64,000 nucleotides of DNA, from NCBI GenBank assembly GCA_017854255.1, contig JAFMIA010000006.1:1-64000 (forward strand), in the 5' to 3' direction. This DNA is from Pseudomonadales bacterium (GTDB lineage Bacteria > Pseudomonadota > Gammaproteobacteria > Pseudomonadales > Azotimanducaceae). The notes under the pieces are model-generated. The model worked only from the letters and a program-made list of their open reading frames with translations, had not been told where the DNA came from and ran no database searches. The position numbers and the translations under genes are program-made. This document shows positions 48,200 to 61,917 of the stretch, piece by piece. Position 1 is the first letter of the stretch, and each line of letters opens with the position of its first letter.

Positions 48200-49345
48200 T
48201 TAATCACGCATTTGGTCAAAGGCTGTGCGGAGTTCCTGCACAAATAAGTCGGGTTGTTCAAAGGCCGCAAAATGGCCACCTTTTGGTAATTCATTGAAGT
48301 AGCGAAGGTCCTGATAGCGTAGCCTTGCCCATCGCTCAGACGTTTTGAAGATCTCTTTCGGAAAGATGCTGATCGCAGATGGTACGGTGACCGGCAAGGA
48401 TGACAAAGTGCTGCTGCCAAAACTTTCCCAGTAAATCCGAGCAGAAGAAGCGCCCGCATTCGGTAACCAATAGAGCATGACGTTATCCAGCAGTTCATCG
48501 AGACTTACGATGTTCTGGGGCAGTCCATCGCAATCCATCCACTGATAGAATTTTTCCAAAATCCACGCCGCCTGTCCCATGGGGGAATCGGCAAGACCAT
48601 AGCCTAGCGTTTGAGGGCGCGTGCTTTGCTGCTTGGAGTATCCGGAGTCATGGTTTTGATAGAACTGCATGGCAGCAAGGCTGTCGCGTTCCGCATCGGT
48701 TAGGTCATTCATTGTCTCGGGATCCGGTGTAACGATTGGCATGGTGACGTGGATGCCTTGACAATGTCCTAGGTTTTGAACGCCGATGGCTGTTGTAACA
48801 ATGGCGCCCCAGTCGCCGCCTTGGGCGAGATATTGGGTATAGCCAAGCCGCAGCATAAGCTCATCCCAGGCCTCGGCGATCTTTTCAATGCCCCAGCCCG
48901 GCTGAGTGGGTTGACCCGAAAAGCCGAAGCCGGGTAGCGTCGGGCACACCAGATGAAAGGCCTGTTCGGCGGTGCCGCCATGGGCGCAAGGATCCGTTAA
49001 GGCTTCGATGACCTTTTGAAACTCCACAATTGATCCGGGCCAGCCATGGGTCATTAAAAGTGGTCGAGCGTCATCATGTTTAGACCGAATATGCAAAAAG
49101 TGTATGTCCACTTCCGATAAGGTCGTCTTAAACCCGGGCCAACGATTGAGCCGCGTTTGCCGATCTGGCCAGTGATAGGATTTTTCCCAATAGTCCTTCA
49201 CCTCAATCATATAAGCGAGCGGAACGCCCTGAGACCAATCACCAGGGGTTTCCGCATCAGGCATCCGGGTCATCGCCAAACGCAGCTTTAGATCGGTGAG
49301 TTGTTCGACCGGGATATCAATTTTGAAAGGGGTGACGTCGGACAT
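48200..49345 (-). CDS. Epoxide hydrolase (EHN domain plus alpha/beta hydrolase)
   Basis: 381 residues. The N-terminal EHN domain (FKIDIPVEQLTDLKLRLA, then DWSQGVPLAYM) caps an alpha/beta hydrolase. HGWPGS (100-105) supplies the oxyanion-hole region, GGD178WG the nucleophilic aspartate, and GGHFAAFEQPDLF the catalytic histidine. It hydrolyses epoxides to diols. CAGGAGT precedes ATG. It is convergent with the AraC regulator (17-bp gap). Confidence 0.93.
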   Translation of the reverse strand: MSDVTPFKIDIPVEQLTDLKLRLAMTRMPDAETPGDWSQGVPLAYMIEVKDYWEKSYHWPDRQTRLNRWPGFKTTLSEVDIHFLHIRSKHDDARPLLMTHGWPGSIVEFQKVIEALTDPCAHGGTAEQAFHLVCPTLPGFGFSGQPTQPGWGIEKIAEAWDELMLRLGYTQYLAQGGDWGAIVTTAIGVQNLGHCQGIHVTMPIVTPDPETMNDLTDAERDSLAAMQFYQNHDSGYSKQQSTRPQTLGYGLADSPMGQAAWILEKFYQWMDCDGLPQNIVSLDELLDNVMLYWLPNAGASSARIYWESFGSSTLSSLPVTVPSAISIFPKEIFKTSERWARLRYQDLRYFNELPKGGHFAAFEQPDLFVQELRTAFDQMRD

Positions 49346-49405
49346 GGTTTACTCCTGGGTAATAATGATAACAACCTAAATTATTCGCAAATAACTTAAA
49401 AAATA

Positions 49406-49419
49406 CGAGTGTGAAGCAA
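49406..49419. repeat. Left copy of 14-bp direct repeat flanking the A+T-richer island
   Basis: CGAGTGTGAAGCAA here is repeated exactly and in the same orientation at 52116-52129. The two copies bracket the genes at 49620-51919, whose base composition and content differ from the surroundings. Confidence 0.6.
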
Positions 49420-49619
49420 TTGTGAACCTGTTTTTGAGTGACAATGCCTTCTTTACTTAGCGTTTTGCCCTCTGCACCGCTCAAACTAATATTTGCGCTT
49501 ACAGACTACATAGAAGACCCCAGCAACTTCTCTGACGAAGCGTGATGGATTGTCTCTCGCAATATACTCACTCTGTTATACGCTAAACCCTGCAACCCAA
49601 GCAACGCAACCCAAATAGG

Positions 49620-50555
49620 ATGCTGCTTAGGACTGATGTGGAGGGCTATCTGGCTTTAGTGATTTCTGCCATATTGAGCGATAGTTGGCAGTTGCTGATA
49701 CAAATGCGTACAGGAGATATTGTGGTGCCTAAAAATCTTGCCAGAAGATCTATTGGTGTTATCGCAACCTGTTTTGTGATGCTGGCAATGACGGGCGAAG
49801 GGTTTGATCCAGCAACGCTCTACTCTCATCAGTGGACGTTGGGATTGTTCGGTGGGCTTATCGCCATCTGCTTATACCTTTATCTCCAATATCAGGTGAA
49901 TGCCGGTGTGGTGCTCAAGTTCGTGGCAATGCCATTTGGTTTTTATGTTTCGCTGATCTTTTTGGTTGATCTCGTTGATGGCGGTAGTGCTGCGATATCA
50001 CTGGCTCTGGTTCCTGCTGTTGTCGGCGGAGCGCTATCAGCCTTCTTTCTGGACAGAGAGTTGCCCGCATCCTTTAGCCCGAAATGGGATAAGAGATTTG
50101 ATTACTTGTTTTTCGTTGGCTGTATTCTGGTAATCCCCTTTGTGGTGTCTAAAGATCCCATCTGGATCCTTTTACATCCTTTTGGTTGGATTATTGCTTG
50201 TGGGTCCGCAATTGCGATTTTCTGTTTTTTTTTGGTGGAGCGACCGCTGGAAGAAAGGCTGTTAGAGGCGACCCTCTTCGGGTTTCTTATCGTGACAGCG
50301 ATCGCCATACTTGCTTACCTCAGTCTGGTTGTAGCGGATGTAAGTAGCGCCGAGATCCAACGAGCACAAAGGGGTGTAGCGACGCTATTGTGCTCCAGCA
50401 TTTACAGTATGGTCTTTTACTTCTTTGCGCTGCTGTATTGCTTGTCGGTTGGAAAAACGGAAAAAGTTGTTAGATCCAACTGGCATTTGGCTGAGGGTTT
50501 CGTGTTCATCGTGTTTATATTCTTTGCGCCAGCAAGTTTGCTGGAAGGTATGTAG
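49620..50555 (+). CDS. Uncharacterised multi-pass membrane protein
   Basis: 311 residues from ATG 49620; an internal ATG at 49704-49707 is an alternative. About eight hydrophobic segments alternate with short loops. No family was recognised. The A+T content is visibly higher and codon use differs from flanking chromosome genes, suggesting acquisition. It is the first gene within the repeat-bracketed stretch. A duplicated GCAACCCAA lies just upstream (49592-49614). Confidence 0.65.
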   Translation: MLLRTDVEGYLALVISAILSDSWQLLIQMRTGDIVVPKNLARRSIGVIATCFVMLAMTGEGFDPATLYSHQWTLGLFGGLIAICLYLYLQYQVNAGVVLKFVAMPFGFYVSLIFLVDLVDGGSAAISLALVPAVVGGALSAFFLDRELPASFSPKWDKRFDYLFFVGCILVIPFVVSKDPIWILLHPFGWIIACGSAIAIFCFFLVERPLEERLLEATLFGFLIVTAIAILAYLSLVVADVSSAEIQRAQRGVATLLCSSIYSMVFYFFALLYCLSVGKTEKVVRSNWHLAEGFVFIVFIFFAPASLLEGM

Positions 50556-50717
50556 GGTAGGTTTTTACGGGAGAAGTTTCGTGTCTTCTAATCGTCCGCG
50601 AAGGGTGTCTATGACAACCCCTTCATATTTCTAATTTAAGGAACCCGCTATCGACAGAGCTGCCCCTAGATTTATAGACGCTCTGTTTGGTAATTTTGGA
50701 ACCAAGGAGAGACGGAT

Positions 50718-50819
50718 ATGAGCCACCGGATTCGATATACTGATGGGTTCAAGCAGGATGCTGTGGCGCAGGTTGTTGCGCGCGGTTGTGCGCCTAGAGT
50801 GAACTTAAGGGTTAGCTAG
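50718..50819 (+). pseudogene. Truncated IS3-family transposase OrfA (N-terminal 33 residues)
   Basis: ATG 50718 has AAGGAGAG in front. The translation MSHRIRYTDGFKQDAVAQVV followed by ARG matches the start of IS3/IS911-type OrfA (HTH domain), where homologues continue with the rest of the helix-turn-helix. Here the similarity stops after about 23 residues and TAG follows at 50817-50819. It is a solo remnant with no OrfB or inverted repeats identified. The stop abuts the ATG of the next small gene. Confidence 0.75.
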
Positions 50820-51005
50820 ATGGATAAACAAACTTCTTACCTTGGTCTTTCAGCGACGCTTTTGTTCGCGTTCTGGTCTTTTGGAAGTGGTCTCCACAGA
50901 GAGTACGCAGGATTGAGTGACAATCTATTCTTCATCTTTCTTACTTTGCCGTTAGTTGTGTTTGGAGTTCCATTGATTAAGAAGAGAAAAGAAGACGAGA
51001 AATAA
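50820..51005 (+). CDS. Small membrane protein, unknown
   Basis: 61 residues with two hydrophobic segments (about 7-22 and 37-53) and a basic, charged C-terminus (KKRKEDEK). AAGGG lies about ten bases upstream, and the ATG directly follows the transposase remnant's stop, so it may be expressed by translational coupling to that fragment. No family recognised. Confidence 0.5.
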   Translation: MDKQTSYLGLSATLLFAFWSFGSGLHREYAGLSDNLFFIFLTLPLVVFGVPLIKKRKEDEK

Positions 51006-51008
51006 CGA

Positions 51009-51422
51009 GTGGAACTTAGTTACTTTGAAACCTTACAAATGATCAACCTGTCGATCGATCGGTTGGAATCGGTCTTCGAATTTTGGTTATCCGCGACCTT
51101 TGCGGCGATTGTGGCAAGTCACCTTGCCGGGGAAAAATTGACAAAAATTTATGCGGGGATGCTGACAAGCATCTATCTGATTTTCACATTCTCAGTGGTC
51201 GTTAGGTCGATGGCGTGGAGTGATGCATTAGAGAGATATTCTAAAATGCTTCGCACCTTGCGGGGTGATGTGAGTGAATCCGCAACTTTAGACCTTGTAA
51301 GTGTCAGTATCTGGGCAACGATAATCTTGGGAACGTTGGCGACCGTGATCTTTATCTGGCACGCCTATGCGACTAACAAAACTGCTGGACCGGTTATCTC
51401 TTCTGACACAAAACGAGATTAG
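51009..51422 (+). CDS. Membrane protein, unknown
   Basis: 137 residues from GTG 51009, three bases after the previous gene's stop. Three hydrophobic segments (about 25-42, 49-66 and 98-118). No family recognised. Low-GC composition matches its island neighbours, and spacing implies co-transcription with the 61-residue protein. Confidence 0.5.
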   Translation: MELSYFETLQMINLSIDRLESVFEFWLSATFAAIVASHLAGEKLTKIYAGMLTSIYLIFTFSVVVRSMAWSDALERYSKMLRTLRGDVSESATLDLVSVSIWATIILGTLATVIFIWHAYATNKTAGPVISSDTKRD

Positions 51423-51484
51423 TAATAGCGCCGTTTTGATAGCGTAAACCTTCTAGTCCTCTCTCGAAATTGAAATAAGGAAAA

Positions 51485-51919
51485 ATGATGCGGTTCATAG
51501 CGTTGATGCTCCTCTTAGTTGGTGTGAACACATTTGCTGATAACCATTTATCGCCAATGATGGCGATAGAGCATTATTTTTCATCCTTCAACAAAGAAGA
51601 CCGGGATGCCCTCAACCAAGCGGCAGATAGTCCTTTCATATTCGTTATCGGGGGAGAACCCAATTCTTACGACCGGTATGGAGACGCAGTTGATTTTGAA
51701 AGATTGAAGGCGTCCGGATGGTCGTATTCTCTCATCAACAGTAAAGAACTCATTTATGCAGACGATCTAACCGCAGCAGTCCGTGTGAATTTTTCTCGGT
51801 TTAACGAAAGTGATGCAGTTATCTCGACGACGGATTCCGTGTACTGATTGGTCCGTCGTGATGGCGAATGGAAGGTTAAGGGTGGGTTTATGAATGGCAC
51901 ACTCACTTTAGGCAAATAG
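51485..51919 (+). pseudogene. Secreted SnoaL/DUF4440-like protein interrupted by in-frame TGA
   Basis: The frame starts with ATGATG (51485) after AAGGA and encodes a signal peptide (RFIALMLLLVGVNTFA) and a SnoaL-like core (MAIEHYFSSFNKEDRDALNQ). It meets TGA at 51845-51847 and would continue to TAG 51917-51919 as LVRRDGEWKVKGGF, the usual end of this fold. In relatives the interrupted position is typically Trp or another apolar residue (VY-W-LVRRDG), so a TGG-to-TGA nonsense change is the simplest reading. A truncated 120-residue product may still be made. Confidence 0.55.
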
Positions 51920-52115
51920 TCTCTTCTTCCGGCTCTACGAAATGATCGCGAGGGCAAGACTCGTCATAGCGCCGTATTGGTTGCTTGCGTCCTGTAACGC
52001 CATCGTCTTTCTGATTGGGTATTTTTAGATACAAAAGACTGATCGCTGTGAAATAAAGTGTGCAGAATCCAGGTTATTGAGATCTAAAAGCCAATCACTG
52101 ACGTGTTATGTGCGG

Positions 52116-52129
52116 CGAGTGTGAAGCAA
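52116..52129. repeat. Right copy of 14-bp direct repeat flanking the A+T-richer island
   Basis: CGAGTGTGAAGCAA, identical to 49406-49419. It lies 36 bp before the 3' end of the quinone reductase gene. Confidence 0.6.
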
Positions 52130-52164
52130 AAATAGTTATTAAAACAATAATTTATATGATTGTT

Positions 52165-53142
52165 TTATTCTTGGGTAATGACAATTTTGCCAATCGCTTG
52201 GCGGTCTAACATGGCGGTCATCGCTAAACCCGCATCTGCCAAAGCGAAGCATTGCCCTGCCTCGGGATTGAGTTGACGCGTTTGGATGCGACTCAGCAAG
52301 TGATCTATGACGGGTTGCGACGCCTCTGGATGGATCATTATGTGGCCACCCCAATTGACGCCAACGATGCTGATCTGTTTTAACAAGGTCAAATTGGCTG
52401 CGAATTTTGGAATACTGCCGCTGGCAAATCCGATCACCAGATAACGTCCTCCGGGGCTCAGGGATCGCAGGGCTGGGTCCGCGAAATCGCCGCCAACGGG
52501 GTCATAAACCACGGTCAAAGCGCGTCCGGCAAGCAGTGTTTTGAGTTGATCCCGCCAGTCGGCGGCTGAATACAAAAGGCCCTCATCGGCGCCGGCTGTG
52601 ATCGCTGCCTGCACCTTTTCAGGTGTTGATGCCGCTGCAATCACGTGCGCGCCGTGGCTTTTTGCGACATCAATCGCGGCAACACCAACCCCGCCGCTTG
52701 CGCCGAGTATTAAGACCGTATCGGAGGCCGTCAAAGCCCCGCAGGTAACGAGGCCATGGTGGGCCGTACAATAATTGACTAAAAACGAGGCGGCAGCAGA
52801 AAAACTCAAATGATCCGGAATGACCAGGCAACGACTGGCTGAAAGACTGATTTGTTCCGCGAGTCCGCCGTTTGACGGCATGGCAAGAACCCGATCGCCA
52901 ACCTTGAGGGTTTGAACGAAAGCGCCAACTTCGATCACGGTGCCGGCGATTTCATTCCCTGGAATGAAAGGTAAGGGGGGCTTGATCTGATACAGGCCCG
53001 ACACGGTCAAGGCATCAACATACCCCAAGCCAGTGGCAGCAATATCGATTAAGACTTCATGATCGGCAAGCGCTGGCGCCTCGGTTTCGGACAAGGTGAG
53101 GTTGCTGGGATGATCAAAGCTTTGGCAAATAATGGCTTTCAA
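52165..53142 (-). CDS. Quinone oxidoreductase-like MDR dehydrogenase
   Basis: 325 residues from a TTG start (53142) preceded by AGGAA. The medium-chain dehydrogenase layout is clear: VLIDIAATGLGYVDALTVSG, PFIPGNEIAGTVIEVG and LILGASGGVGVAAIDVAKSHGA (NADPH motif). No structural zinc cysteines are seen. It is a paralogue of the protein at 38060-39085. Substrate unknown. Confidence 0.9.
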   Translation of the reverse strand: MKAIICQSFDHPSNLTLSETEAPALADHEVLIDIAATGLGYVDALTVSGLYQIKPPLPFIPGNEIAGTVIEVGAFVQTLKVGDRVLAMPSNGGLAEQISLSASRCLVIPDHLSFSAAASFLVNYCTAHHGLVTCGALTASDTVLILGASGGVGVAAIDVAKSHGAHVIAAASTPEKVQAAITAGADEGLLYSAADWRDQLKTLLAGRALTVVYDPVGGDFADPALRSLSPGGRYLVIGFASGSIPKFAANLTLLKQISIVGVNWGGHIMIHPEASQPVIDHLLSRIQTRQLNPEAGQCFALADAGLAMTAMLDRQAIGKIVITQE

Positions 53143-61003: not shown

Positions 61004-61066
61004 CGCAGGCTATCTATTACGCCGCAGGCTATTAACTCGCCGCAGGCTATTCATTTCGCCGCAGGC
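61004..61066. repeat. Tandem 18-19-bp repeats with core CGCAGGCTAT
   Basis: The core occurs at 61004-61013, 61023-61032 and 61041-61050, with a shortened fourth (CGCAGGC, 61060-61066) inside the last codons of the thioesterase gene. The array seems to have grown from the 3' end of that gene, extending it into the intergenic gap. Confidence 0.7.
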
Positions 61067-61917
61067 GCTTCAGGCTCAAACTGCACCATCGCCGCCATCT
61101 GTCGCGAGACCGCGATGAGCGCGCCGCTGCTGGAAAACATCCGACCGTTTTCAACCAGGTAGCCGTCTTGGGCGAGTTCGGTCGAGAATTCAAACAAGGT
61201 GTAAGCATCATCGGGCAGTGCCGAAAAATCGTTTTGTAAAAAATGTACCGTGTGATCGATGGTGGGCACATGCACGTCATAATCCAGATGCCTTGAAATG
61301 ATGCTGGGGTACCAGGCGTCGCTCATGGCGAGCAGGCCTATGTCATCAAGGGGCCTGCAATCCATGAAGCGCATCCAGCCGCCAATGCGTCCGGAGCCAT
61401 CGCGCGTACCCGGCGTTGGACCGATCGCAATGCGTTGATCAAAATGCTGCCGAAACGGCACGGCAAATTTCGAATCGGTTTGTTGCCAGTCCGTTGGCGC
61501 GATCTGGGATGCGGGCGAAACATCGGGCATCACCTGATCACAAAAGGCAGCGTCGAGGCGTTTGGCGGCAAAATGGGCATTGGCCATGGCAATGGTTCGG
61601 TCATTCTGGATAAGTTCTGCGGTATACATGCTGGTCGTTCGGCCCGCTTTAACGCAGCGCAGGGACATTGAGGCGGGGCCAGGCACCGAGGGGCTGATGA
61701 AGCTCAGCGCCACCGAACGGACCGTTTGATTACTTTGGATGGGCAGGGTTTTGATGCAGCCCAGCAGCAGCGCGCCGAGATAGCCGCCGTTTGGCCCAAC
61801 GATCACCTGCCAGCGATCTGAAATCGTAACGGGTAGCGTCCAGGTTTGATCAGTCAACGCAAGGAGTTGTGTTGGATCGACGCGAATATCATGGTCGAGT
61901 TGAAAAGCATGAGACAT
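61051..61917 (-). CDS. Acyl-CoA thioesterase family protein (double hotdog)
   Basis: 288 residues. VGPNGGYLGALLLGCIKTL is the first hotdog helix, LSFISPSVPGPASMSLRCVKAGRTTSMYTAEL its sheet, and DHTVHFLQNDFSALPDDAYTLFEF the second hotdog strand region; GYLVENGRMFSSSGALIAVSRQM ends the fold. This resembles the TesB-related 4HBT_3 thioesterase family. AGGAA precedes ATG. The last residues (EAPAAK) fall in a tandem DNA repeat. Confidence 0.87.
   Translation of the reverse strand: MSHAFQLDHDIRVDPTQLLALTDQTWTLPVTISDRWQVIVGPNGGYLGALLLGCIKTLPIQSNQTVRSVALSFISPSVPGPASMSLRCVKAGRTTSMYTAELIQNDRTIAMANAHFAAKRLDAAFCDQVMPDVSPASQIAPTDWQQTDSKFAVPFRQHFDQRIAIGPTPGTRDGSGRIGGWMRFMDCRPLDDIGLLAMSDAWYPSIISRHLDYDVHVPTIDHTVHFLQNDFSALPDDAYTLFEFSTELAQDGYLVENGRMFSSSGALIAVSRQMAAMVQFEPEAPAAK

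Follow-up and report, generated by a model that had tools for sequence, protein, structure and literature searches.

Genes and features at the locus

In the window, i.e., the whole 64,000-nucleotide stretch of DNA that was analysed, a small islet lies between two host genes of the minus strand, a zinc-type alcohol dehydrogenase / quinone oxidoreductase-like (QOR) gene upstream and an epoxide hydrolase gene downstream (Table 1). Both host genes are intact, with a protein identity of 94–97% to the nearest strain that has an empty site.

An earlier reading made from the sequence only had described four unknown or broken genes in the islet, and this description holds. None of the open reading frames (311, 61, 137, and 120 aa) matches a Pfam family above the cut-off, and the 120-aa frame is closed early, its NTF2-like protein being 144 aa long in two sister genomes (G005 and G012). 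No integrase match was found among these four frames, and no transposase was found beyond an IS3 stub. For the 311-aa protein there is no match in phages. For the 137-aa protein there is no match in plasmids, and a wider search returned it in 6 of 293 genomes including its own, with the others at 24–31% identity. Distant paralogues of the 311-aa and NTF2-like proteins are separated by ~1–2 kb at a single locus in G002, G003, and further members of the genus (L105–L108: G002:C108, G003:C3, G000:C92 and C14).

No Rfam family was found, and the promoter scan gave 3 promoter-like sites against 4.1 expected. Since such sites are no commoner than expected, we do not claim that the insert supplies a promoter. 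Elsewhere in the window, an 18-bp unit around CGCCGCAGGCTATT is repeated in tandem over a short stretch at positions 61020–61070.

Table 1 Features of the islet and its two host genes, in order of position in the window
Feature	Position	Strand	Basis or remark
Epoxide hydrolase, host gene downstream (EHN and alpha/beta hydrolase), intact	48200–49345	-	Domain match and relatives
Duplicated host junction, left copy of 19 bp, with the epoxide-hydrolase ribosome-binding site	49345–49363		Alignment to L004–L006
Insert, ~2.8 kb, absent from relatives	49364–52160		Empty-site comparison and low G+C
Left 14-mer, 42 bp inside the left insert end	49406–49419	+	Exact match
Hydrophobic protein of 311 aa, no family	49620–50555	+	Genus has only distant paralogues, 21–27% for long matches
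IS3-family left-end stub, cut at IS position ~136	50657–50792	+	89.7% to intact copies L097 and L098
Hydrophobic protein of 61 aa	50820–51005	+	Close homologues, both preceded by an IS3 remnant, in G005:C322 and G012:C22
Protein of 137 aa, GTG start	51009–51422	+	97% in G005; 72% over the C-terminal 60 residues in G012; relative in UBA4475
Shared post-gene motif, copy 1, short form, overlapping the end of the 137-aa gene	51391–51472	+	Model R1
NTF2-like gene (DUF4440/DUF6841-like, below cut-off), frame closes early	51485–51847	+	Longer copies in G005 and G012
Shared post-gene motif, copy 2	51919–52011	+	Model R1
Right 14-mer, 31 bp inside the right insert end	52116–52129	+	Exact match; present in G005:C322 too
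Right copy of the duplicated host junction, with the QOR-like stop codon	52161–52179		Empty-site alignment; also in G005:C322
Zinc-type alcohol dehydrogenase / QOR-like, host gene upstream, intact	52165–53142	-	Domain match and relatives

Empty sites and the duplicated junction

The proposal that the islet is an insertion is borne out by the relatives. The QOR-like gene was searched in 38 genomes including its own, and the neighbour count is limited to the 19 relatives with a returned locus (L004–L022), in 13 of which the QOR-like and epoxide hydrolase genes are adjacent and the island is absent. In these empty sites, the gap from the QOR stop to the epoxide hydrolase gene is 3–25 nt. For 6 of the 19, the epoxide hydrolase gene was not found in the locus stretch examined, and the QOR match there is at most 48% identical.

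The closest empty sites are those of G003, G005, and G002, whose junctions were aligned base by base (L004–L006). In all three the junction sequence is present as a single copy, which provides both the QOR stop and, for the gene that follows, the ribosome-binding site. In the window, the QOR stop is retained by the right copy and the ribosome-binding site by the left copy. Because each gene retains its own signal, at least 15 bp must have been duplicated, and it is owing to this duplication that neither host gene is broken. The two copies are identical at 16 of 19 positions, a score that was equalled in 4 of 5000 shuffles, and the changes of the right copy inside QOR are all synonymous, as read from the aligned sequences. 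That is, a direct repeat of host DNA stands at both ends of the insert with one copy in the empty site, as in a target duplication, and this applies to the 19-bp sequence, not to the 14-bp repeat inside it. Since the duplicated junction lies outside, the bounds of the insert can be set at about the positions given in Table 1, with the left junction known from one assembly only.

The lower G+C that had been noticed is also found in the composition check, with 44.8% over the insert versus 52.8% and 54.4% in the 10-kb flanks. Actually, this value is below that of all 613 sliding windows of equal length, and the base composition falls sharply from ~49360 to 52160. Overall, the comparison of sequences confirms the islet as a real, derived, and small insertion of an ordinary kind.

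The 14-bp direct repeat

The exact 14-bp direct repeat seen in the sequence-only reading, CGAGTGTGAAGCAA, is present on the plus strand at both positions. No third copy exists in the window at up to 2 mismatches, nor a further exact copy in the 3.36-Mb genome. When 15 genomes of the genus were searched for exact matches, only G000 (2) and G005 (1, within its copy of the right half of the island) were returned. The role first given to this repeat, a host target duplication or attachment site, has to be abandoned, since the 14-mer is absent from the three closest empty sites.

Instead, the 14-mer could have arisen as a target duplication when a second insertion took place inside the first. In such a history, a gene block of ~2.7 kb would have entered a short A+T-rich insert already present, copying 14 bp. 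This nested insertion is the simplest reading of where the 14-mers are placed, not a proven one, and taken alone we hold it tentatively, with the balance somewhat against it. The intermediate that it implies, a short A+T-rich insert of ~87 bp with one 14-mer, was looked for in two ways. Among the collected loci, its joined form matches only the window and the right half in G005, plus one weak A+T-rich match, and the exact search of the 15 genomes gave no single site outside the island.

An A+T-rich stretch in G012:C10, considered as similar to the outer arms of the insert, lies beside a tRNA-like sequence and was judged a chance resemblance. A reading of the A+T-rich outer arms as inverted repeats of a MITE-like kind was rejected, with p 0.12 for the alignment score in 5000 shuffles and a fold z of −0.4.

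It is rather unlikely, in our judgement, that the insertion was a single one, in which the 14-mer is a recombinase binding site that is directly repeated near the two ends of the element itself, the target duplication is 15–19 bp long, and there is no second layer. One event would then explain both repeats, and the 14-mers are similarly placed relative to the two ends. However, subterminal sites of transposons are usually inverted, whereas the 14-mers are direct, and no other element with these ends was found in the 58 genomes searched with island DNA, the right end being seen only in the right half in G005.

We regard it as improbable that the 14-mer is a chance match and that only the 19-bp duplication matters. 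A match of this length flanking the stretch had been called unlikely by chance. Seen over the window at large the repeat is unremarkable, whereas against the insert ends as fixed by comparison it is unlikely to be chance. The window has 4 direct repeats of at least 14 bp whose copies are within 5 kb of each other, versus 0–6 in 40 shuffles, which average 1.5, so that, for a search of the whole window, it is no great surprise that one of them lies by the island. On the other hand, a 14-mer common to two 100-bp end segments turned up in 3 of 20,000 shuffles, and 9 of the 199,992 pairs of real segments compared in the window had one, i.e., a rate of ~5e-5 to 1.5e-4. Because sharing near both of the comparatively fixed ends is this rare, the pair is probably the trace of some event.

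Islet pieces in sister genomes

The contents of the islet are a mosaic of a membrane-protein gene, the IS3 stub, and three small genes, which is observed directly rather than deduced. Contig C322 of G005 holds window positions 50820–52256 at 97.4% identity (1399/1437), including the right 14-mer, the right junction copy, and 76 bp of QOR. There, the right half adjoins not the epoxide hydrolase gene but a gene that we take to encode a cytochrome c from its CxxCH motif, and the relatives of this gene in the window's genome and in G008 have no islet adjoining within contig reach. In G012, contig C28 carries the NTF2-like gene together with the C-terminal portion of the 137-aa gene (90% at DNA level), and contig C22 has the 61-aa gene (96% at DNA level). 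Thus, two sister genomes have the three small islet genes in different surroundings. A sequence of ~120 bp on G005:C322 (L062:7318–7442) is also seen at several places in G000, G002, G003, and G005, with ~68–81% identity.

Since G005 carries its empty QOR/epoxide hydrolase pair on another contig (C248), the explanation is either a mixture of strains in its bin or a move of the right half with a piece of QOR. The arrangement on C322, where an unrelated gene adjoins the right half with its attached QOR end, would suit a history in which homologous recombination on the QOR side brought the islet from a strain of this type, with an illegitimate join near the epoxide hydrolase start. We give this history little probability. 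It leaves the junction duplication unexplained, and because QOR adjoins the epoxide hydrolase gene in 13 of the 19 relatives, the C322 piece is more likely to derive from a window-like arrangement.

The IS3 stub

The solo IS3 start that had been noted is real: it is 136 bp long and matches the left end of an IS of ~1,245 bp with the ends TGAGATGCCCCTAG. Two intact copies of this parent are present in G003, and the products of one of them (L097) match HTH_Tnp_1 and rve. Unlike the parent, the copy in the window is a truncated stub whose transposase is gone. A full IS3 element or an IS3-bounded transposon was considered and rejected, since the similarity is confined to the left stub. IS3-family elements make target duplications of ~3–5 bp, so such an element is probably not the maker of the 15–19-bp duplication.

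The IS3 remnant ahead of the 61-aa gene is cut at nearly the same IS position in the window, in G005:C322, and in G012:C22, and because of this likeness the joint between the remnant and the gene is probably old. More left-end fragments of this IS3-type element occur in the genus (L103:4885–5015, L099:4530–4663, L100:6731–6797, L101:5649–5701, and L063:1323–1366 and 2875–2919).

A shared motif behind accessory genes

The two copies of a ~95-bp motif in the islet belong to a wider set. The motif starts at or just past the stop of three unrelated genes (NTF2-like, T5orf172, and DUF805), and it overlaps the coding end of the 137-aa gene and of its UBA4475 relative. With model R1, 8 copies were detected in 4 of 58 genomes, own included. 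Six of these copies match by construction, since the model was built from six rows, two of them from the window. Among genome contigs there are 12 stretches, of which R1 supports four from the genus (L119, L120, L123, and L130) and L128 from UBA4475; the other 7 score at most 16.9 bits with R1 or not at all. The number in viral contigs is 0.

In G003:C4 (L095:4831–6143), a gene that we presume to be GMP-synthase-like directly precedes a broken tyrosine recombinase, behind which come an IS3 end, the motif, and some hypothetical genes, and this stretch is probably another island. A T5orf172-domain gene of G012:C28 is flanked by 23-bp direct repeats that equal the motif start and are identical at 22 of 23 positions (L063:2084–2106 and 2748–2770).

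A gene followed by a shared 3' motif recalls an integron cassette, and the gene block might consist of such cassettes, each with an attC-like site and moved by an integron integrase. The same motif behind unrelated small genes, the T5orf172 gene flanked by two copies of its first 23 bp, and the different order of the modules between genomes all resemble cassettes, and candidate R''/R' boxes pair in 71% of cells versus 20–43% when slid. However, these boxes were picked on one of five rows, and their pairing and covariation are no better than in shuffles, 156 to 388 of 500 of which reach them. The conservation also extends ~20 bp beyond the supposed crossover box, and the few copies form no array. 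We consider integron cassettes improbable here. There is only a slight chance that the motif serves an undescribed gene-cassette system as its recombination site, with the islet as a fossil of one such insertion outside an array.

Relation to known systems

The islet is most readily set beside small genomic islets, i.e., lateral-gene inserts between conserved genes. As in these, its G+C is low, its genes are hypothetical, it contains an IS remnant, it is absent from relatives, and both neighbours are intact; an empty site in close relatives together with atypical composition marks it as acquired. It differs from them in its recognisable 15–19-bp duplication of the host junction and its inner 14-bp repeat. 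Mobile insertion cassettes (MICs) consist of passenger genes between IS ends, with the transposase missing. The islet likewise has passenger genes, an internal IS end, and no transposase, but its only IS3 end lies in the middle rather than at the borders, neither border is an end of that IS, and the borders show no significant inverted repeats.

For a transposon, neither significant terminal inverted repeats nor a transposase beyond the stub is seen at the islet, and for a site-specific integrative element, the supposed attachment core (the 14-mer) is absent from the empty sites and no integrase match occurs in the four frames. That is, no terminal inverted repeat or recombinase that would explain the 15–19-bp duplication was found at the insert.

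Proposed history and implications

Based on the above analyses, we propose that a small genomic islet, now degraded, entered the 3-nt gap of a two-gene operon on the minus strand (QOR-like, then epoxide hydrolase) in an ancestor of this strain. The insertion duplicated ~19 bp of the junction, with at least 15 bp needed, and thereby spared both genes. At the outer ends this may have been one transposition-like act, whose enzyme was lost or supplied from elsewhere. The content would be accessory modules traded within the genus, now without a recombinase. Taken as a whole, this history, with a derived insertion, a junction duplication, and a mosaic content, is probable in our view, the inner 14-mers as a second layer being its tentative part.

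This case also indicates that a perfect internal repeat can mislead, since the true scar is decayed and lies outside the repeat. The motif common to several accessory genes is the sole lead of wider interest. The sister genomes are marine or unspecified Pseudomonadales bins, where "marine" is deduced from the names of the bins. With an insert that sits in a 3-nt operon gap without harm to either gene, the islet provides a clean case of gene gain in a marine lineage known from metagenome bins.
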